This document shows positions 14,730 to 61,472 of a stretch of 64,000 bases of DNA, one piece after another. Location of the stretch: assembly GCA_035765535.1 (NCBI GenBank), contig DASTXE010000004.1, positions 1 to 64,000 of the forward strand. Direction: 5' to 3'. The stretch is from Rickettsiales bacterium (GTDB lineage: Bacteria; Pseudomonadota; Alphaproteobacteria; Rickettsiales; JABCZZ01). The position numbers were made by a program, and so were the translations under genes. The notes beneath the pieces are model-generated. The model worked only from the letters and a program-made list of their open reading frames with translations, made no database searches and had not been told where the DNA came from. Positions within the stretch are counted from its first letter, which is position 1; each line of letters opens with the position of its first letter.

Positions 14730-17084
14730 TCAATTGAGTTGGGGTGGAGTCGTATCGTTAAACAGGGTTTTATCATTAATATCGGAAACAGGCGCAGGTT
14801 CATTCACGGGAATGATGCTGCCCGCGCCGGGAGTATAGCTGGGTGTAGAGCCGCCGCCGAAGCTTTGCAGCACCACCATGACCGAGAAGGTTGTGGAAGG
14901 CTTGACATCCTGTACGGTGATATAGCTGCGGCCGATGGAAGTATTAACCGTCATGCATTCATTATGGAAAATCAGCCCCGTACCCAGACCGACCGTCCCC
15001 TGCGAAGGATTAAGCAGGTTGAAAGCGGAACTGTTCGCGGTGGTTGCGGTTGACGTTGTTGCGTTACTGCCAAGATCCTTACGGCCAGAAACACTCCATG
15101 TCCAGTGCTTTGTCAGATCGACGGAAGTATCGCCGAAAATCGATTTACGGTCACCGAACAACGGCTCGTTATGCAGAGAGATAAACGTTGCATTCACGGT
15201 AACGGGGGCAAGGGAAAGGCTGGAAACGATTTCGTTGCTGATGGGGCTCAGCGTTTCGCGGTCAAGCCGGAAACTGTATGCCGCGTCGAACCCGCCATAT
15301 TTCAGCGCAAGCCTTCCCACATAATCGGAATAATGCGCCCGCGTCGAGCTGGCGATCGGGAAAGGATTCTGCGGGTTATCCTCATAAGCCTGGCCGGCCA
15401 GCCATTGGATATATTCATCATCTGCAAATTGCAGCTGCCCGCGCGTGCCGTAGGTTCCGCGCATGCCGGATTCAAGCTGGTCCAGCCCGGTAAAACGGTT
15501 ATTGGAGAACAGATTGATATCGCTCAATTCAGATATCTGGCTATCCTCGTTGGGAATCGTGGTCGGCATATGCCGGTTAGGGCTTGCGGCCGCTTCCACG
15601 ATCGGAGCGATCATAAGGCTCTTGCCATCCCCGAGCCGGTTAATAAACGGATAGCGCCAGTCGAAATCCACTTCCGGAATCACGCGTGCCTGCGTACCGC
15701 TGAAAGTCTCACCTGTCGTGGGATTTACCGTCTGATTCACAATGTTATAGGCATCCCCGCGCACGGACGCTCCAAGATCCATTACTTGCCCATCACGTGT
15801 GACGTAAGGCAGTTTCCAGCTTGCCGTGCTGGAGACTCGCTGGTCGCTGTCGCCCACCTGGCGTTCCAGCACGAGCGCACTGCTATCCAGCATCAGCCTG
15901 GAATGATTGGAAAACGGCGCGCTTTCAACATGCATTTCGGCCTGAGGCAAGATATAGGGCGATTGGTTGGAGATATCCTGCGGCTGCAGTCCCTGGAACG
16001 CCAGACTCTCCACAAGAGCATAATCGCGGTCGTTAATCCGCTCCGCATACAGACGTGAAGTCAGCATGTCCTGCCAGCCGATACCGTATAACGCCAGGAA
16101 TGTATTATCGCTCGTGCGCTCCATGTCGATGCCGGAATTCCAGTGCTCGCTGAGCTTCATGGTACCGTGCGCGTCGATATAATCGCGTACTTCCGTCCCG
16201 GAAACGATATTGCCCGCGGAATCGCGGTTATAGGCGTTAATGATAGCACCGTGGATTTCATAATAGGCGTTCTCGGTCATATGACGGAACTCCGCCTGCA
16301 GCATGGGACCGTTTTCGCCGCCGATATACCAGGGCGTGAGCGTCATATCCATATTCGGCTCAAGGCTCAGGTAAACCGGCTGCTTGACGACGTTGCCGAT
16401 CGTGCTGTCATGGTAGTATTGCGGCATGAGCAGCCCTGACTGGCCGGGAGCGTCCGGTGTCGGGTGCGAGAAATACGGCGTATAAAGCACAGGAACGCCA
16501 TATACATCCATAAACGCATTATGATACTTCACGCGCTTGATATTCTCATCGATCGTGACATCCTGCGCGGACATCTGCCATAACGGTGACTGCGGCGGCT
16601 CTCCGGGCTTGACGGCGCAGACCTGGCAGGGGGAATAAACCGCGTCCTTGAGTTTGGTGACATTCTTGCTGATTTTCTGCGCCTCGCGCGCGGCAAACAG
16701 CGAATTATCTTTCAGGCGTGCGCGGAATTCCTTGACGACACCCTTCTCCAGCGATTGTTTGAGCGCCAGTTCCTTGGCAAACAGCACATCGCCGCCTGGC
16801 TCCAGCACACTGACATGCCCGGTCGCATAAACCGTGTCCGTGCGCTGATTGTAGGAAACCTTGTCCGCAAGGATAATCGTATCCCCCTGCACCACTTCCA
16901 CATGCCCGGCCGCCACCGCCGTGCCTGTATGCTCGTCATAGCCTATGGCCTGCGCCGTCAGCATTACCGGCTGTTTATTGGAAACTCCGTAACTCTCAAG
17001 TGCACGCGCAGAAACGCTGCCGAAAACGGCAAGGGCAAGAACACAAGCGGATACTACATATTTCTGGCCGACCGACACGCTCAA
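14730..17084 (-). CDS. lptD: LPS-assembly protein LptD
   Basis: LptD is the outer-membrane beta-barrel that places lipopolysaccharide on the cell surface. The 784 residues have a signal peptide (VVSACVLALAVFGSVSARA), an OstA/LptA-like jellyroll (AIGYDEHTGTAVAAGHVEV..., residues ~45-130) and a long barrel domain. CQVC near residue 153 is a candidate disulfide pair. No ATG is available: the frame opens at TTG 17084 or GTG 17078, with no clear Shine-Dalgarno, so the start is uncertain. The upstream side, where lptG is often found, instead holds the foreign cassettes. Confidence 0.94.
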   Translation of the reverse strand: MSVSVGQKYVVSACVLALAVFGSVSARALESYGVSNKQPVMLTAQAIGYDEHTGTAVAAGHVEVVQGDTIILADKVSYNQRTDTVYATGHVSVLEPGGDVLFAKELALKQSLEKGVVKEFRARLKDNSLFAAREAQKISKNVTKLKDAVYSPCQVCAVKPGEPPQSPLWQMSAQDVTIDENIKRVKYHNAFMDVYGVPVLYTPYFSHPTPDAPGQSGLLMPQYYHDSTIGNVVKQPVYLSLEPNMDMTLTPWYIGGENGPMLQAEFRHMTENAYYEIHGAIINAYNRDSAGNIVSGTEVRDYIDAHGTMKLSEHWNSGIDMERTSDNTFLALYGIGWQDMLTSRLYAERINDRDYALVESLAFQGLQPQDISNQSPYILPQAEMHVESAPFSNHSRLMLDSSALVLERQVGDSDQRVSSTASWKLPYVTRDGQVMDLGASVRGDAYNIVNQTVNPTTGETFSGTQARVIPEVDFDWRYPFINRLGDGKSLMIAPIVEAAASPNRHMPTTIPNEDSQISELSDINLFSNNRFTGLDQLESGMRGTYGTRGQLQFADDEYIQWLAGQAYEDNPQNPFPIASSTRAHYSDYVGRLALKYGGFDAAYSFRLDRETLSPISNEIVSSLSLAPVTVNATFISLHNEPLFGDRKSIFGDTSVDLTKHWTWSVSGRKDLGSNATTSTATTANSSAFNLLNPSQGTVGLGTGLIFHNECMTVNTSIGRSYITVQDVKPSTTFSVMVVLQSFGGGSTPSYTPGAGSIIPVNEPAPVSDINDKTLFNDTTPPQLN

Positions 17085-17231
17085 TTTACCGTAGAAACAC
17101 CCTCAATTTCAGTATGATGACCAGCCGCGTACAAAACGCCGCCACACCCAAGTAAACGTACCATATCGCATGCAGGCTAAATTGCAACAGTAACGCTAAA
17201 ATAATGGCTTAGCCTGTCAAAACGCTCAGCA

Positions 17232-17286
17232 GTCACAAAACCGTCACAATTCCCAAATTGTGAGCCATTGCGGGAACTGGTAAAAT
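17232..17286 (+). promoter_or_regulatory. Cassette A promoter with repeated operator
   Basis: GTCACAAAACCGTCACAA (17232-17249) holds two GTCACAA half-sites 11 bases apart. After 8 bases comes TTGTGA (17258-17263), which is both an inverted half-site and the -35 box. A 17-base spacer leads to the -10 TAAAAT (17281-17286). Cassette B has the same arrangement with the same spacings. A regulator binding TCACAA/TTGTGA over the -35 box is inferred. Confidence 0.8.
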
Positions 17287-17339
17287 GAAGCTGTCTTGCT
17301 TGCGTTTCTCTGTCCTGGAAACCTATCCGGAAGAAACAA

Positions 17340-17425
17340 TGGCTGAAGCCAGCATAACTGAGTCACTTGCTGGCCCGTATATGCTGGTCGAAAAAGACAC
17401 GACCTGTCCCACGCTTCGGTGTGGG
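17340..17425 (+). promoter_or_regulatory. Structured leader RNA of cassette A
   Basis: Three hairpins follow the promoter. GCCAGCA (17348-17354) pairs with TGCTGGC (17368-17374) around a loop containing AACTGA. GGTCG (17386-17390) pairs with CGACC (17400-17404). CCCACGC-TTCG-GTGTGGG (17408-17425) has a UUCG tetraloop just before the ribosome site. An alternative stem TGGC/GCCA (17340-17351) would compete with the first hairpin. The first two hairpins have counterparts in cassette B. Confidence 0.65.
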
Positions 17426-17441
17426 CGGAAAGCAGGTTACA

Positions 17442-18029
17442 GTGAAGTCCATCCCGCAGGAATGGAGGCGGCACCTCAGGACGGCGCGAGACGTCGGCCT
17501 CTGGCTCCTCCTCGCCGCCAGCGGAGCGGTCGGAATCTACCTCGTGCACCGCAACGACGCCAGGACGATGAGCGACTACGTCGTCATCGCGCTGCTCGTC
17601 GGTATGACGGCGCTCGTGGTAAACGTCCCCGGCCTGTTCACGCGGCCCACCAGCAAGCTCGAACCCATTCCCGTCACCTGGGTGTGGATCGGCATCCGCT
17701 CGAAGCGAGTGCTGTTCGTGTGCTGGCTGTTCCTGATGCTCATCGGCACGTTCGCCGCCATCCCCGTCGTCGCAGCCTTCATCGGTCTGTGGTGGTGGCT
17801 GCGGCGCAAGGAGATCGTCGCGACCATGCCCCCCCTGACCATCTGGCTCAAGGACGGGCAGCCGCACAACTACACCTACGGCGGCAGGGTCGACGGCATG
17901 CCGAAGGTCTGCCCCCGGGGCACGATCGTGATGGTTACGGGTGAGGGCGACTACGCCGTCTTCCACCCGGCCAGGCCCCTGGATCTGCCGAAGTCGCTGA
18001 CTCCGGCGGAACCGACGGCGCAGCAGTAA
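17442..18029 (+). CDS. Cassette A: small multi-pass membrane protein, unknown
   Basis: The likely start is the GTG at 17442 after GGAAAGCAGGTTACA, giving about 195 residues; the frame is open further upstream into the leader. It has hydrophobic segments near residues 18-36, 46-66, 82-95 and 98-120 (VGLWLLLAASGAVGIYLV, VVIALLVGMTALVVNVP, VLFVCWLFLMLIGTFAAIPVV), then a soluble tail with NYTYGG and LDLPKS. Codon use is strongly GC-rich, unlike lptD and nuoI. The tail pattern YT(Y/F)xG...LPK recurs in cassette B, so the two may be distant relatives. I do not recognise a family; it resembles actinobacterial or actinophage small membrane proteins. Confidence 0.7.
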   Translation: MKSIPQEWRRHLRTARDVGLWLLLAASGAVGIYLVHRNDARTMSDYVVIALLVGMTALVVNVPGLFTRPTSKLEPIPVTWVWIGIRSKRVLFVCWLFLMLIGTFAAIPVVAAFIGLWWWLRRKEIVATMPPLTIWLKDGQPHNYTYGGRVDGMPKVCPRGTIVMVTGEGDYAVFHPARPLDLPKSLTPAEPTAQQ

Positions 18030-18037
18030 CCGCGCCA

Positions 18038-18084
18038 GCGGCCCGGTCCTCGTCCCTCCCGCGTGGGGGACAGGGCTGGGCCGC
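18038..18084 (+). terminator. GC-rich hairpin terminator of cassette A
   Basis: GCGGCCC (18038-18044) pairs with GGGCCGC (18078-18084), with further pairing inside (GTCCC with GGGAC-type bases). There is no T-run, the style common in high-GC actinobacterial genomes. It starts 9 bases after the cassette A stop. Confidence 0.65.
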
Positions 18085-18146
18085 AAGCGATTGCCATTTA
18101 ATCACACAAATCCCCCCGAATAATTTACAGGAATATACGCTAACTC

Positions 18147-18201
18147 GTCACAAAACCGTCACAAACCCACGGTTGTGAGCTATTGCGGGAACTGGTAGAA
18201 T
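18147..18201 (+). promoter_or_regulatory. Cassette B promoter with repeated operator
   Basis: The same GTCACAAAACCGTCACAA 18-mer occurs at 18147-18164, then 8 bases, TTGTGA at 18173-18178, a 17-base spacer and TAGAAT at 18196-18201. The spacer differs from that of cassette A at a single base; the 8 bases between half-sites differ freely. Conservation is therefore restricted to the functional positions. Confidence 0.8.
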
Positions 18202-18251
18202 GAAACGGTCTGCCACATTCTACGCTTGGGAAAAATTCCTGAGGAGAATAC

Positions 18252-18316
18252 GGCTAAGGCCAACATACAACTGACTTCGTGTTGGCTTGTCACTGTTGTC
18301 GCCTGAAAAAGACAAC
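18252..18316 (+). promoter_or_regulatory. Structured leader RNA of cassette B
   Basis: GCCAACA (18259-18265) pairs with TGTTGGC (18280-18286) around a loop with AACTGA. The cassette A stem is GCCAGCA/TGCTGGC, so one base pair has changed from G-C to A-T on both sides: a compensatory change. A second stem, GTTGTC (18295-18300) with GACAAC (18311-18316), encloses GAAAAA, echoing GAAAAAGACA in cassette A. Confidence 0.65.
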
Positions 18317-18366
18317 TATGCCTCACCTAATCGAGATTCAGGTGCAGGCAGAGGAGGAGTTACATC

Positions 18367-19083
18367 GTGAGCACCACTGAGTCCACGAACGTGGACACGG
18401 GCACGGTCGCAACCGACGTGGCGAAGGCGAAGAGGCACCGGATCCTGGCGGCCATCTACTGGGTCGGCGCGATCATCGGCGGCAACCTCGCCATCTACTT
18501 CTGGTCCGTCGTGTCGAGCGCCTCGTCCGGCGTCAGCTACGACCCGAACACGGGTGCGCCCATGCTCACCGACGGCAACTCGGCCGGCCCGAACATCACG
18601 GCGAACTTCGTGTACAGCATCCTGGGCACCGTGTTCTTCGCCCTGGGCTTCATCGTCCGGTCCGGCTGGTTCCGCAACAAGCCGCGCAACGGCCGGTTCG
18701 GCGCCGTCCTCAACCTGGCGCAGACGCTCGGTGTCCGGCGGTTCTACCTCGTCGTCGCGCTGTGCCTGACCATCGTCACGAGCTACGGCTGGCGCGGTCT
18801 GACCATGTTCGTCCTGATCGTGGCCGTGTACCACCTGTACAACCGTCTCACGGCGGCCAAGGTGGAGGCGGCGAACACGATCAAGGCGAAGGAGCTGGAG
18901 ATCGCGGGCGCCAACCTCGTCGTCAAGGGGCTGGACGGCACGCCGACCGGCTACACCTTCCAGGGGAACTTCCCCATGGAGACGGTGCAGAAGTTCGGTC
19001 TGACCACCGGGCACGTGTTCGTCCCGCAGGTCAACGGCAGCGTCAACGTCTACGAGCTGCCGAAGACCGGCAAGGTCGGCTGA
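18367..19083 (+). CDS. Cassette B: membrane protein, unknown
   Basis: The GTG at 18367 follows GAGGAGGAGTTACATC and gives 238 residues. A polar Thr/Ser-rich N-terminus is followed by hydrophobic segments near 25-45 (ILAAIYWVGAIIGGNLAIYFW), 78-98 (VYSILGTVFFALGFIV) and 122-158 (FYLVVALCLTIVTSYGW, LTMFVLIVAVYHLY). A charged helix AAKVEAANTIKAKELE and a C-terminal soluble region with GYTFQG and YELPKTG complete it. GC-rich codon use matches cassette A. No family recognised. It sits between its own promoter and terminator as a self-contained unit. Confidence 0.75.
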   Translation: MSTTESTNVDTGTVATDVAKAKRHRILAAIYWVGAIIGGNLAIYFWSVVSSASSGVSYDPNTGAPMLTDGNSAGPNITANFVYSILGTVFFALGFIVRSGWFRNKPRNGRFGAVLNLAQTLGVRRFYLVVALCLTIVTSYGWRGLTMFVLIVAVYHLYNRLTAAKVEAANTIKAKELEIAGANLVVKGLDGTPTGYTFQGNFPMETVQKFGLTTGHVFVPQVNGSVNVYELPKTGKVG

Positions 19084-19114
19084 CCGACAGCACTGAGTAA
19101 CATCCGCTAGCGTG

Positions 19115-19158
19115 CCGGGCCCCCGTCCCCTCCCCCTCGGTGGAGAACGGGGGCCCGG
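19115..19158 (+). terminator. GC-rich hairpin terminator of cassette B
   Basis: CCGGGCCCCCGT (19115-19126) and ACGGGGGCCCGG (19147-19158) form a perfect 12-base stem around a 20-base loop, 31 bases after the stop. No T-run follows. Confidence 0.75.
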
Positions 19159-19218
19159 TCCGCGCACTGTCTATTAAGACTAAGCTCGCTTCACCGCGAG
19201 CAGGAAGGAGTACCTGTC

Positions 19219-19590
19219 ATGAGTGACGAGGACCCTCGCAAAGAGCTTTACGGCGACAACATACAGGGAATCGCACCTTGGCAAAACATCTCGGGCGGTT
19301 CCGACAGTTATGCCGCAGCGCACGACTTCCGTCCGGCAGAGCCTTACGTCGGAGACCCAAGAATGGGCGGAAACGCTCCCTACGCAAGCGCCCCTTACCG
19401 CGCACCGCGGCCGAGGCGCTCGTGGAAGCAGAGGGGACAGTCGTTCCTCGAATGGCTGCTCACTCTCGTGTTTCTGGGAGTCGTGGCTATCATCGGCTCC
19501 ATTAACATCTGGGCCGGTGTGGTAGCTTTCGTCGCATGGATCGTTATCGCTGCCATCATCAGGCAGCGTGTGAGGAAGGGACGCAAGTGA
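19219..19590 (+). CDS. Cassette C: small membrane protein with two C-terminal helices
   Basis: The 123-residue protein starts at ATG 19219 with AGGAAGGAG upstream. The first ~70 residues are polar, rich in Pro, Ala, Tyr and Arg, and likely disordered and cytoplasmic. Two membrane segments follow (FLEWLLTLVFLGVVAIIGSI and WAGVVAFVAWIVIAAII), ending in a basic RQRVRKGRK tail. A hairpin GCTCGC/GCGAGC lies just before the ribosome site, but the A/B promoter repeat is absent, so it may be read from upstream or use another promoter. Function unknown. Confidence 0.75.
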   Translation: MSDEDPRKELYGDNIQGIAPWQNISGGSDSYAAAHDFRPAEPYVGDPRMGGNAPYASAPYRAPRPRRSWKQRGQSFLEWLLTLVFLGVVAIIGSINIWAGVVAFVAWIVIAAIIRQRVRKGRK

Positions 19591-19625
19591 ACACAATCAC
19601 TTTCACCCAACTTCCTCGCGGCACG

Positions 19626-19662
19626 CCGGAATCCTCTCGTCCTTCGGGGCGGAGGGTTCCGG
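19626..19662 (+). terminator. Hairpin terminator of cassette C
   Basis: CCGGAATCCTC pairs with GAGGGTTCCGG (11 base pairs, one G-T) 35 bases after the stop. Like the other two cassette terminators it lacks a T-run. The foreign island probably ends between here and about 19700. Confidence 0.65.
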
Positions 19663-19728
19663 TCTGTGTCGCAAATCTGCATTCTGGAACCTCTTAGAGG
19701 TCCAGCCAAAATTTAGGATTTTCGGATT

Positions 19729-20217
19729 CTACCTGTACGGCGCGTCTGCTTCGATATTGGCACGGATCGCCGGTTCCCAGCGCTCACCATTGCCAATCAG
19801 CTTATCCTTATCATAGAACAATTCTTCGCGCGTCTCGGTGGCGAATTCGAAGTTCGGGCCTTCCACAATCGCATCCACCGGGCAAGCTTCCTGGCAGAAA
19901 CCGCAATAGATGCACTTGGTCATGTCGATATCGTAACGCGTCGTGCGGCGCGAACCGTCATCACGCACTTCCGCTTCAATCGTGATGGCCTGCGCCGGGC
20001 AGATCGCTTCGCACAATTTGCAGGCGATGCAGCGTTCTTCACCGTTTTCATACCGGCGCAGCGCATGCTCGCCGCGAAAGCGCGGGCTAAGCGGGCCTTT
20101 TTCATACGGGTAGTTGATCGTGACCGGGCGGCGGAAGAAATAACGCAGCGTCATCGCTAAGCCGGAGATCATCTCAAACAGGAAAAAACTGCGTATCCTT
20201 CTATATGCTGTTAGCAT
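19729..20217 (-). CDS. nuoI: NADH-quinone oxidoreductase subunit I
   Basis: NuoI is the 23-kDa ferredoxin-like subunit that carries two [4Fe-4S] clusters (N6a, N6b) in the complex I arm facing the membrane. Both motifs are intact: [12 protein letters not shown] and [12 protein letters not shown]. The 162-residue length is standard for alphaproteobacteria. The ATG at 20217 follows GAGGGGAAGCC and overlaps the DedA gene by 17 bases. nuoJ, the expected next gene, is missing here; the foreign island follows. Confidence 0.97.
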
Positions 20218-20830
20218 TGGCTTCCCCTCCGGTTTCTTTACGGGCCTTATGGCGTCTTATATACAATATAATCATTACCGCAACCACTATCAACACCGTC
20301 GCCGTGGCGTAAGGCGTGTAATGCTTGACCAGCGCTTTATTGCCGCCGATCAGATAGCCGATCATGATCAGTATTGCCATCCACACGCCCGCTCCCACGG
20401 CGGTGTAAAGGCTGAATTTCTTAACATTCATCCTGCCAAGCCCTGCCGGGAATGAAATAAAATGACGCAAGCCCGGCACCAGACGGCCTGTCAGCGTGGA
20501 GATTTCGCCGTGGCGGGCGAAGAAGCCGTCGAGCTTCTCCATTCTTTCATGGCTGAAGAACATGTATTTGCCATAAGCATACAGGAATCTTCTGCCGTAA
20601 TGGTAGGCAATATAATAATTGGCAAGCGAACCGGCAAGCGAGCCCAGAATCGCCGTGAGCAGCACAACAATGCCGTTCATTTCTCCCTGGCTTGCCAGAT
20701 ACCCTGCCGGGATCATCGTGACTTCAGCCGGAAGAGGCACGAACGTGCTCTCCAGAAACGTCATGATAAAAACGCCGGTGTACCCAAGGCTTCCGACAAA
20801 ATCAACCAGCCATGATGCAATCGCTTCCAC
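20201..20830 (-). CDS. DedA family membrane protein
   Basis: From the GTG at 20830, preceded by AAAGG, the protein is about 209 residues; longer readings overlap nuoH. DedA/SNARE-associated proteins are inner-membrane proteins tied to lipid carrier recycling and envelope homeostasis. Visible signs are [22 protein letters not shown] near the N-terminus, [20 protein letters not shown] with the family arginines and glycine, and five to six hydrophobic stretches. It is sandwiched between nuoH and nuoI with 25 bases to one side and an overlap on the other, so it is co-transcribed with complex I genes, which is unusual. Confidence 0.93.
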
Positions 20831-20855
20831 TGTCAGCCTTTCTGTTTGCGCCGGC

Positions 20856-21872
20856 TTAAACGTGATGGCCGTAGACGATGCAACCCGAAACGATCGCAAC
20901 CCAGACAAGCGAGAACGGCAGGAACACTTTCCACCCCAGACGCATCAGCTGGTCGTAGCGGTAACGCGGCAGCGTGGCGCGCACCCAGATAAATACGAAC
21001 AGCAGGATCAGTATCTTCAGCACGAACCAGAGTACGCCCGGAATCGCGTTGCAGATCGCATTATCCACCGGCGACCACCAGCCGCCGAGGAAAAAGATGC
21101 TCGTCATGCCGCTCATCAGGATCATGTTGATATATTCACCCAGGAAGAACAGACCGAACGTCATCGAGGAATATTCAACGTTATACCCGGCAACGAGTTC
21201 GCCTTCGGCTTCCGGCAGGTCGAACGGGTGGCGGTTGGTTTCCGCAAGCGCCGAAATGAAGAAGATAATGCACATCGGGAAGAGGATGGAAGCGACATGC
21301 CAGTGGCTGATACCGCCTTTTTGTGCGTTAACGATATCCGTCAGGTTCAGCGAACCCACCTGCAGCAACACCGTCACGATCACGAAACCGATGGAAACTT
21401 CATAGGAAACCATCTGCGCCGCGCTACGGATCGCGCCCAGGAACGCATATTTAGAATTGCTCGCCCAACCGGCCATGATGATGCCGTAAATACCGAGCGA
21501 AGAAATGGCGAACAGATATAGCACGCCGACATTGATATTCGCAATGACGAAGGAAGGCGAAAGCGGAATCACGGCCCAGCCAAGCAGCGCCAGCATGAAT
21601 GTGAGCATCGGCGCAATGACGAAAACCAGCTTGTTGGCTTTGGTCGGCAGGATCGTTTCCTTGAACATCAGCTTGAAACCGTCCGCAAACGGCTGCAGAA
21701 TCCCTAAAAGCCCCACCACGTTCGGCCCCTTGCGCAGCTGCATCGCACCGATGACTTTACGCTCAAGCAGGGTCAGCAGCGACATCGCAATGATAAGCGG
21801 CACCACGACCAGAAGAATCTTGCCGATAATCCACAACGCCGGGACGATATAAAGACTAAGTATTTCCTGCAT
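20856..21872 (-). CDS. nuoH: NADH-quinone oxidoreductase subunit H
   Basis: NuoH is the membrane subunit beside the quinone site of complex I. From the ATG at 21872 ([14 protein letters not shown]) it has 338 residues, with AGGAAACGACTG upstream; a GTG at 21899 is in frame but less likely. The conserved loop [21 protein letters not shown] is intact, as are about eight membrane helices. The upstream neighbour is an RND pump rather than nuoG, so only nuoH and nuoI of the complex I operon are present here. Confidence 0.96.
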
Positions 21873-56484: not shown

Positions 56485-57447
56485 TTAATTGCCGAAAAAA
56501 GCCTGGATAAAACGAAGGAGCCATGGGCGTGCCTTCTTACGTTCCTCAGAATAAACCTTCATTCCATCAACCATTTGATACTGCCAGTTCTGCTCTGGAT
56601 TTTTAATAAGTCCACCATTCATACTGCAATAAATGAGCTGTGCATTAGTTCGGTGACCACCACCAGTAACAGATTGGTTTATAAAATCGATGGTATAGGT
56701 TTCAGAGGCGCACATCTGCTCGTTCACAAATACGAGTGCGTCCTGTGTCCAGCTTTTAATATCAAAAATGTCCGTATCAACAGACATTAAGTTATTGAAG
56801 ACATAGGCTCTCGATTCGATACAATGACCGGTTTCACGCCTGCAGGTAATTTTTGAACGTTGGAGAGGAAATGCTATAGCAGAATCATCATCCCTGCCAG
56901 ACCGAGTCCATGTTCCTTCTATAACAGCATAATTATTAGCGGTATCTCTATAGATGTTTACCCCACCCCCAATCGTCACGGGAACGCGCGTATCAGTAAT
57001 AAGATTCAAATAATCGCTTATCCAGAAAAGCAGGACAATACCTGTAAAAATCCATGTAAAGACAACAAAAGATTTTTTGCCTCTGCCGTAGTTAGACCAA
57101 TTAACGACACTGCGGTATCCAGCTCTTTGTATGCGGTAGATGTATAATAAAACAACGCCAGCCATCCATAAGAATGGCAGAGGGATAATACCTGCCATTA
57201 TAGAACTAAGGGTTTCTTGTTTAGTATATAATTCAAGGCTTTCTTGACGCTTCAGTATACAACTCGAAATATCCGTATTATGATGCACCATTTTGGTGTC
57301 TTTACATACACCTTCGGCAAAATCAGCAGCGCTATTCGCCCTTTTCATTAAATCATTATGGGTTTGCATTGCCATTCCGATGGCAAATAAAACAGATATG
57401 ACAATCGCAATTTGCGTGATTTTGCCAAGTCGCATAAATCGTTTCAT
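56485..57447 (-). CDS. Membrane protein, unknown
   Basis: The 320-residue protein has three membrane segments (residues ~10-30 ITQIAIVISVLFAIGMAM; ~83-104 GIIPLPFLWMAGVVLLYIY; ~130-150 FVVFTWIFTGIVLLFWI), then a ~170-residue beta-rich domain with cysteines (ITCRRETGHC, EQMCASE, IYCSMNGG). The N-terminal loop is also Cys-bearing. It could be an envelope sensor or an immunity-like protein. No family recognised; AT-richer than its neighbours. Confidence 0.7.
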   Translation of the reverse strand: MKRFMRLGKITQIAIVISVLFAIGMAMQTHNDLMKRANSAADFAEGVCKDTKMVHHNTDISSCILKRQESLELYTKQETLSSIMAGIIPLPFLWMAGVVLLYIYRIQRAGYRSVVNWSNYGRGKKSFVVFTWIFTGIVLLFWISDYLNLITDTRVPVTIGGGVNIYRDTANNYAVIEGTWTRSGRDDDSAIAFPLQRSKITCRRETGHCIESRAYVFNNLMSVDTDIFDIKSWTQDALVFVNEQMCASETYTIDFINQSVTGGGHRTNAQLIYCSMNGGLIKNPEQNWQYQMVDGMKVYSEERKKARPWLLRFIQAFFGN

Positions 57448-57564: not shown

Positions 57565-57639
57565 TGGTGACCCCTACGGGACTTGAACCCGTGTTACCAC
57601 CTTGAGAGGGTGATGTCCTAACCGCTAGACGAAGGGGTC
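57565..57639 (-). tRNA. tRNA-Glu(CTC)
   Basis: On the minus strand the acceptor GACCCCT pairs with AGGGGTC, and the encoded CCA occupies 57565-57567. The anticodon loop CTCTCAA gives anticodon CTC, reading GAG. The D-loop GCGGTTAGGAC and T-arm CGGGTTCAAGTCCCG are canonical. Confidence 0.96.
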
Positions 57640-57701
57640 ATGGGGAAATATATACAGCACAGCGCAGTGCCCTGTGAATCAGATTCTACAATCCTAAACC
57701 T

Positions 57702-59870: not shown

Positions 59871-61139
59871 TTAATGGCCAAGAGCCGGACCGCTTCCGGT
59901 CTGGGCAGCAAAATCCTGCGGCGTTCTTGCTGTCTCAGGAATATGGCTCTGGGGTTGCTGCACACGATCCGTAAAGCGCATGGGAGCCTGTTCAGGCTGT
60001 GGCTGCTGTTCCATCGTCACAGTGCGTGCATTGCCCTGCGCATCCAGCACTACGCCATGTTCTGCAAAGGTGGCAATGGGGTCAGCCCCTTTCGCAATCG
60101 CAGCCGCGACCTGCTTGACTTCTTCCACCCCTTTCCCCTTACCGGCCAATTCTACGTAGGCCATGTTTTCAGGGAATTTATCCATCAACCCGTTGCCCAG
60201 GAGGAACAATACCTTACCCACAGTGAGATCCACATTTTCTTCCCGGGGTGTGTTACCGTAAGTCTGGTTCATCCGGTCCGCAATGAATGCCGCCACCCGT
60301 TGATTGTCATGCGCTGCCTGTGTCGCAGGAGCAGGCGGCTGGTAGGATTTATCCTGCCCGCGTCGGTAAATCAGCAACATGCTGCTGATATCCGAGGTCT
60401 GGATAATGTCGTACGGATTATTCGTATTATGCTGGATCTTGTCATCCACCAGATTCTGCAGCAGCTCGAACAGCGATTCCTTACGCGTGAAAGCATCCAT
60501 AAACAGGTAAGACGCGATAACGCCAGTCCCCATGCGCGAGTTAGCCTGATAAGCATCCGCATCGCGTATTTTAGTGCCCGGTTCAGTAGGATGGCTCAGA
60601 ACATGCCAGGGCAGGAACAAAGTGGCGTCCGCCGCAAACCGCATTGCCGTGCGGCGCGTAAGCGCTTTCATGGTTGTCTTCAGCAACGGATTCGTGCTTT
60701 GACGCATATCGTTAAAGGTAATTTCATTAGGCGCTTTATTAAGCTCGTAACCGGCCGCCTCGGCGAAGACGGTCTTAATATCCTGGTAGGTTTTCCGAGT
60801 GTAATAGCCGGTCACTGCCGTAGCGAGCGCACCCCATCCGAGCGCGAAGAAATTCTTCTGCCAGTACGCCTGCTGAGCCGGCTGGCCCTTTTTCAGCATG
60901 TTAAGTGGATTCAGTCTCTCCACACCTTCCACGAGGTAACGCGCAGTCAGCAGAGGCAATATCAGGCGTAAATAAGGTGCAATATAATTGGAGAACCGCC
61001 CCTGAATCGGCAGCGCCTGCTTCCCGGCATTAGCCGCATTCGTGGCGTCAGCATCCCCTGCCGTCTGTGGCGACGGTGTTTGCTGCCCCGTTTGCGCGGC
61101 AGGGGGAGCCATCGGTCGGTTCTGCGTTTCTACTGCCAT
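59871..61139 (-). CDS. Unknown protein with disordered ends
   Basis: The 422-residue protein has Pro/Gln/Ala-rich tails at both ends (residues ~1-45 and ~365-422) around a helical core. Two hydrophobic stretches occur (YIAPYLRLILPLLTARYL near 52-70; FFALGWGALATAVTGYY near 95-111), so it may associate with membranes. No signal peptide or known domain is visible. It is flanked by the GGCT-like gene (88 bases away) and the divergent tolB. The long open frame and tail composition suggest a real, lineage-specific gene. Confidence 0.7.
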   Translation of the reverse strand: MAVETQNRPMAPPAAQTGQQTPSPQTAGDADATNAANAGKQALPIQGRFSNYIAPYLRLILPLLTARYLVEGVERLNPLNMLKKGQPAQQAYWQKNFFALGWGALATAVTGYYTRKTYQDIKTVFAEAAGYELNKAPNEITFNDMRQSTNPLLKTTMKALTRRTAMRFAADATLFLPWHVLSHPTEPGTKIRDADAYQANSRMGTGVIASYLFMDAFTRKESLFELLQNLVDDKIQHNTNNPYDIIQTSDISSMLLIYRRGQDKSYQPPAPATQAAHDNQRVAAFIADRMNQTYGNTPREENVDLTVGKVLFLLGNGLMDKFPENMAYVELAGKGKGVEEVKQVAAAIAKGADPIATFAEHGVVLDAQGNARTVTMEQQPQPEQAPMRFTDRVQQPQSHIPETARTPQDFAAQTGSGPALGH

Positions 61140-61472
61140 AGGTTACTGTCGGATATACCTTTCCTTATGATATATTGCCCTTTTCAGCCAGTATATTACA
61201 GGAAAACTTTATGAAGTTTTTGTTACATATTGCGAAAAAAAGGCGGATTTCCGCCAACCGGCTGAGAAACTGGCGTTTTATAACCGGCTCATTCCTGCCT
61301 CTGCCTATGCGTTAACCAGCGTTGTTGCGTTAAAAATCATTAGTCCCGGAGCCGCCCCACTCTGAAACATGTTTTTATACATTGTTTATAGAATAAGGCT
61401 TTATTCCATGCTTGACCTGTTTAGCCGATGTACTAATACTGGCGCATGCAACAGACTTTTTCAGGGGTAATT
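61140..61472. other. 333-base gap upstream of tolB
   Basis: It holds the divergent upstream regions of the unknown gene and tolB. GGCGGA-TT-TCCGCC (61242-61255) with a T-run on the minus strand looks like a minus-strand terminator although no minus-strand gene lies immediately upstream of it. The tolB promoter is near 61412. No gene is seen. Confidence 0.5.
61412..61439 (+). promoter_or_regulatory. Candidate tolB promoter
   Basis: TTGACC (61412-61417), a 16-base spacer and TAATAC (61434-61439) fit a sigma70-type promoter 33 bases before the tolB start codon. Confidence 0.55.

Follow-up and report, generated by a model that had tools for sequence, protein, structure and literature searches.

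The block of three genes between lptD and nuoI in the analyzed window (i.e. the whole 64,000-nucleotide stretch of DNA) is one of a set of similar loci dispersed over the genome, and we consider it reasonably probable that this set consists of acquired, high-GC orphan genes that were recruited into a PhoB-type regulon. The block spans positions 17,222-19,676 and comprises three plus-strand genes encoding small membrane proteins (P1, P2 and P3), each closed by a GC hairpin without a T-run. The flanking genes, lptD (14730-17084; Pfam LptD, 2e-43) and nuoI (19729-20217), are both located on the minus strand. This arrangement of three plus-strand genes, each with its own GC-rich hairpin, had been proposed in the first-pass annotation and was confirmed by the open reading frames and by folding. 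The features distinguished within the block are as follows.

17231-17247, plus strand: Pho-box-like 11-bp direct repeat of unit 1 (AGTCACAAAACCGTCAC), matching the E. coli Pho-box consensus at 15/18 positions
17258-17286, plus strand: putative promoter of unit 1, TTGTGA-17-TAAAAT, with the -10 at 17281-17286, 33 nt past the box
17293-17441, plus strand: structured leader of unit 1, with a cUUCGg hairpin immediately 5′ of the start codon
17442-18029, plus strand: P1, 195 aa, orphan, GTG start, three hydrophobic segments followed by a soluble C-terminal domain
18040-18084, plus strand: terminator-like hairpin of unit 1, T-less and GC-rich, fold z -3.1, -45 kcal/mol
18146-18162, plus strand: Pho-box-like repeat of unit 2 (CGTCACAAAACCGTCAC), matching the external consensus at 14/18 positions
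18173-18201, plus strand: putative promoter of unit 2, TTGTGA-17-TAGAAT, with the -10 at 18196-18201
18208-18366, plus strand: leader of unit 2, paralogous to the leader of unit 1
18367-19083, plus strand: P2, 238 aa, orphan, GTG start, at least three hydrophobic segments and a soluble C-terminal domain
19108-19167, plus strand: terminator-like hairpin of unit 2, T-less, fold z -5.2
19219-19590, plus strand: P3, 123 aa, ATG start, one or two hydrophobic segments and a C-terminal hydrophobic region
19618-19676, plus strand: terminator-like hairpin 3′ of P3, T-less, fold z -8.4

The organization into self-contained promoter-leader-gene-terminator units, previously ascribed to all three genes, was found for P1 and P2, whereas P3 has a terminator only, with neither a promoter box nor a leader of the P1/P2 type. 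All three downstream hairpins are far more stable than shuffled sequences (z-scores as listed above) and T-runs are absent from them. Two promoters of the form TTGTGA-17-TARAAT were observed, at 17258 and 18173, against 0.5 expected. The promoter and leader units of P1 and P2 (A1 and A2, respectively) are paralogous, with 81% identity over 75 nt and 85% when promoters and leaders are compared. A 7-bp leader hairpin of unit 1 (17348-17374; fold z -2.1) is common to unit 2 via one compensatory pair, a covariation which, coming from two sequences and a single pair, proves little. A search of Rfam gave no credible match. The P1 and P2 proteins share a weak similarity in their C-terminal domains (11 of 2000 shuffles were equally good), and their AlphaFold2 single-sequence models are of low confidence (pLDDT 53 and 57, respectively).

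P1 and P2 are clear composition outliers. Their GC3 values (0.91 and 0.97, respectively) lie far above the genome background (mean 0.586, 99th percentile 0.72; computed on 1,652 genes encoding 200 aa or more), and their codon usage is closer to actinobacterial reference DNA than to the host, by 0.25-0.36 nats per codon. P3 is no outlier: its GC3 is 0.68 and its codon usage, neutral between the actinobacterial reference and the host, is host-like. The foreign GC content and codon usage attributed to the block by the first-pass annotation therefore apply to the first two genes, but not to the third.

The idea of a single island was not borne out, since loci of identical design are found elsewhere in the genome. 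Including the window block, at least 14 loci (approximately 20 genes) were recognized, i.e. at least 13 further intergenic loci with the same anatomy. The census combined codon scoring and GC3 with folds computed for intergenic windows, which replaced a perfect-stem hairpin scan that missed known cases, and it covered one genome apart from C5:136001-208000 (72,000 bases), which adjoins the C5 locus. The cassettes occupy five of the six contigs, at the following positions (in thousands of bases).

Contig C4: 17.2-19.7 k (window), 252.4 k, 255.6 k and 290.2 k
Contig C3: 168.5 k, 174.4 k, 209.2 k, 325.6 k and 452.7 k
Contig C5: 208.1-210.5 k
Contig C6: 186.4 k, 240.7 k and 697.1 k
Contig C1: 7.6 k

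At all of these loci a mostly AT-rich promoter/leader is followed by an orphan gene of high GC content and then by a strong hairpin that is mostly poor in T. The GC content is mostly 0.34-0.54 upstream of the leading genes and 0.59-0.70 within the ORFs, while the terminators range from -28 to -45 kcal/mol, with a longest T-run mostly not exceeding 4. GC3 reaches 0.98 and is moderate in P3 and in cassette genes B (0.75), N (0.69) and M (0.58). The C5 locus encodes two secreted-type paralogs (I1 and I2) that are 43% identical as proteins and have leaders 90% identical to one another.

Several other features were noted at or close to these loci. In the C5 cluster (208.1-210.5 k) a third promoter and leader points into C5:136001-208000. 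The cassette pair at C6:240931-242848 encodes proteins of 303 and 287 aa that appear by eye to be von Willebrand-like and PP2C-like, respectively, with no Pfam match (E 0.05). Two small ORFs at C4:256187-256820 are almost the same at their 5′ start (MIxxTMFxNRGLMPEED) and in the T-less terminators that follow them, and they form a tandem duplication whose 3′ parts have diverged. A dispersed intergenic repeat of approximately 80 nt, REP-like and 74-95% identical between copies, occurs at C4:257014-257100 and in some 35 other places, on contigs C1, C2, C3, C4 and C6.

The PHO box consists of two 11-nt repeat units and is present in many phyla (PMC4415409); its E. coli form is CTGTCAT-A(AT)A(TA)-CTGT(CA)A(CT) (PMC3465305). 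Most of the cassette promoters contain a pair of 11-bp repeats of the type TGTCAYAWAANCTTCAY, placed 22-24 or 32-34 nt before the -10; the distances admitted for the strict architecture (21-24 and 32-34 nt), one helical turn apart, were preset, so the phasing is a search setting. The strict box and -10 architecture was identified in 9 of the 16 leading cassette promoters, including both promoters of the window, and cassettes D, F and K have no good box in the sense direction. With the E. coli consensus as an external reference, the 16 cassette upstream regions score higher than 648 native ones (p=2.4e-8), a comparison with a small circularity, since locus B was first found by its box. The box lies 33 nt from the -10 in the window and 21-24 nt from it at many other sites of the genome; a second box might be formed by the TTGTGA sites that lie in between.

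This architecture extends well beyond the cassettes. The box followed by TANNNT was found at 40 sites in 2.6 Mb, 40/40 of them intergenic, compared with one site in the reversed and one in the complement-only sequence, both of which preserve composition. The genes behind most of the 40 sites are of normal composition and encode Gly- and Ala-rich proteins, and the promoter type is therefore considered resident. No Pfam family reached its cutoff for ten host-composition genes of the regulon. A PhoB equivalog is encoded at C3:165516-166274 (TIGR02154, 339.7 bits; cutoff 296.2) and PstB at C6:780538; no Pho box was demonstrated at the resident pstB region.

Two other observations were made within the window. 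A box at 61227 (minus strand; TGTAACAAAAACTTCAT), with 15/17 matches to the regulon consensus and no -10 at the standard distance, precedes a host-composition ORF (59871-61139). A 320-aa ORF at 56485-57447 (minus strand; GC3 0.38, no Pfam match) adjoins a tRNA-Glu gene (57565-57639) and a strong hairpin near 57699.

From the promoter architecture we infer binding by PhoB and induction of the cassettes. Under phosphate limitation, or in response to another signal sensed by the resident regulator, the pair of 11-bp repeats in front of the -10 would be bound by PhoB in its phosphorylated form, or by a closely related OmpR-family paralog. Transcription would start approximately 7 nt past the -10, cross a structured leader some 150 nt long into a gene whose product is predicted to be a membrane or secreted protein, and end at the GC hairpin, which would thereby insulate adjacent genes of the host. 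High-GC donors are the probable source of the coding parts; these may have arrived with their own terminators and been placed behind promoters of a resident type, which also serves many orphan membrane genes native to this genome, and some units may have been duplicated later. The products may act in the envelope or in host contact, the latter being possible because a type IV secretion ATPase, VirB4, is encoded in the genome (NF010473, 1260.8 bits; cutoff 1050).

Alternatively, complete units of promoter, leader, gene and terminator might have been supplied by a mobile element, or by a related donor of high GC content, in which PhoB-type promoters were already in use, and the host would read them via widely conserved PhoB recognition. 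We give this explanation a minor, though appreciable, chance. It is in agreement with the presence of PHO boxes in many phyla (PMC4415409), with the paralogous promoter and leader units that travel together (A1/A2 and I1/I2), and with the high GC content common to gene and terminator. However, an identical box at identical distances precedes many genes of host composition, no donor was found, and the window block carries no mobile-element gene. Moreover, the promoter and leader are low in GC while the gene is high, and for this reason recruitment of the genes behind resident promoters is favored over the arrival of whole units.

No donor of the high-GC genes was found in any of the collections searched. 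P1, P2 and P3 matched no family at a meaningful score in Pfam, PHROGs, NCBIfam or PADLOC, and among 50,697 phage and 72,556 plasmid records no relative of these proteins was revealed by tblastn. Pattern searches of IMG/VR and, for P2 only, of GTDB species genomes gave nothing. Nothing usable came from searches with the promoter either. Only noise-level matches were obtained for P1 and P2 in 395 sampled Actinomycetes genomes, so the actinobacterial source suggested by the first-pass annotation is not supported, and the same was true for P2 in 385 genomes of its own class. The promoter core has a single match in Actinomycetes, with 3 mismatches and in a context that does not correspond. The operator 17-mer, searched across genome contigs, gave scattered matches in many phyla, which we read as PHO-box-like sequence. 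The other cassette genes had no match in PHROGs, nor did the two largest of them in phages.

The layout of the units had also been likened to that of phage accessory genes. Morons, i.e. accessory genes, from an actinobacteriophage or an actinobacterial plasmid would indeed show the Actinobacteria-like codon usage, the T-less hairpins, and the separate promoters and terminators. This candidate is not supported, as the window genes have no homolog in phages, plasmids, IMG/VR or PHROGs and no prophage context. Furthermore, the cassettes are spread over 14 loci, there are no phage genes beside the window block, and the promoter type is common to resident genes. In our opinion a moron origin is improbable.

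The surroundings of the block differ from the gene order of related genomes. In a genome of the same genus nuoI is followed by rnd, and in one of the same family the order is lptF-lptG-lptD, while in the source genome lptF, lptG, rnd and nuoJ are sited elsewhere, in ordinary surroundings. The lptD-nuoI adjacency is therefore a derived product of rearrangement and, judging from gene order, the genome is broadly rearranged, not only at this point. A gene encoding a DedA/VTT-domain protein is located between nuoH and nuoI (window 20201-20908), and the same insertion is present in the same-genus relative. As stated in the first-pass annotation, there is no integrase or transposase gene among the ORFs of 17.1-19.7 kb and no flanking direct repeat of at least 7 nt in the same orientation around the block; no tRNA gene was found nearby.

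Since lptD and nuoI are not adjacent in relatives, the block lies at a rearrangement breakpoint, as it would if unrelated DNA had been joined between them in a chimeric assembly. Such a chimera is very unlikely, because 14 loci, distributed over five of the six contigs, show the same anatomy and have promoters in common. In addition, the ordinary contexts of lptF, lptG and rnd indicate that rearrangement is general in this genome, and the assembly is listed as 100% complete and 0% contaminated. Equally far-fetched is the view that these are native genes with extreme codon bias, e.g. long-resident orphans selected for GC-ending codons, which would suit the host-type promoters, the failure to find a donor and the moderate GC3 of P3, B, N and M, but not GC3 values of up to 0.98, when the 99th percentile of the 1,652 resident genes is 0.72, or terminators that are likewise high in GC.

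With recruitment into a PhoB-type regulon, an apparent lone foreign island becomes a genome-wide pattern of insulated, relative-less genes tied to what seems to be one resident response regulator. This pattern opens two questions to direct testing: how genes of foreign origin come to be domesticated within a regulon that already exists, and which of the lineage's orphan proteins act together. The box and -10 at a fixed distance provide a sequence handle by which the regulon could be catalogued in related genomes. A broader and much more speculative scheme, to which we assign a low probability, would be a general mode of capture: resident PhoB-box promoter/leader units would repeatedly acquire foreign high-GC genes with T-less terminators, giving rise to a class of self-insulated cassettes that are dispersed over the genome, answer to a single stress regulator and have no recombinase of their own.

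When compared with known systems, the window block differs from an integrated genomic island or ICE in having no integrase, transposase, flanking repeats or nearby tRNA gene. P1 and P2 resemble phage moron genes in possessing their own promoter and terminator, in encoding small membrane proteins and in their foreign composition, but the cassettes have no prophage or phage homologs and occupy 14 sites under a resident promoter type. The similarity to the Pho regulon lies in the two 11-bp direct repeats (up to 15/18 matches to CTGTCATAWAWCTGTCAY) upstream of a sigma-70-like -10, and in the PhoB equivalog encoded by the genome. In classical E. coli Pho promoters the box is nearer to the -10 than the 22-24 or 32-34 nt seen here, and the targets in this genome are orphan membrane or secreted proteins instead of phosphate-uptake genes. 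The effector genes of Legionella and Coxiella (e.g. those controlled by PmrA) are scattered single genes, many of odd composition, with a common box of the OmpR/PhoB family. The cassettes differ from these regulons in their box, in their T-less hairpins and high-GC genes, and in a secretion ATPase of the VirB and not the Dot/Icm type; like them, they are scattered genes of odd composition placed behind a common box, in a genome that encodes VirB4.
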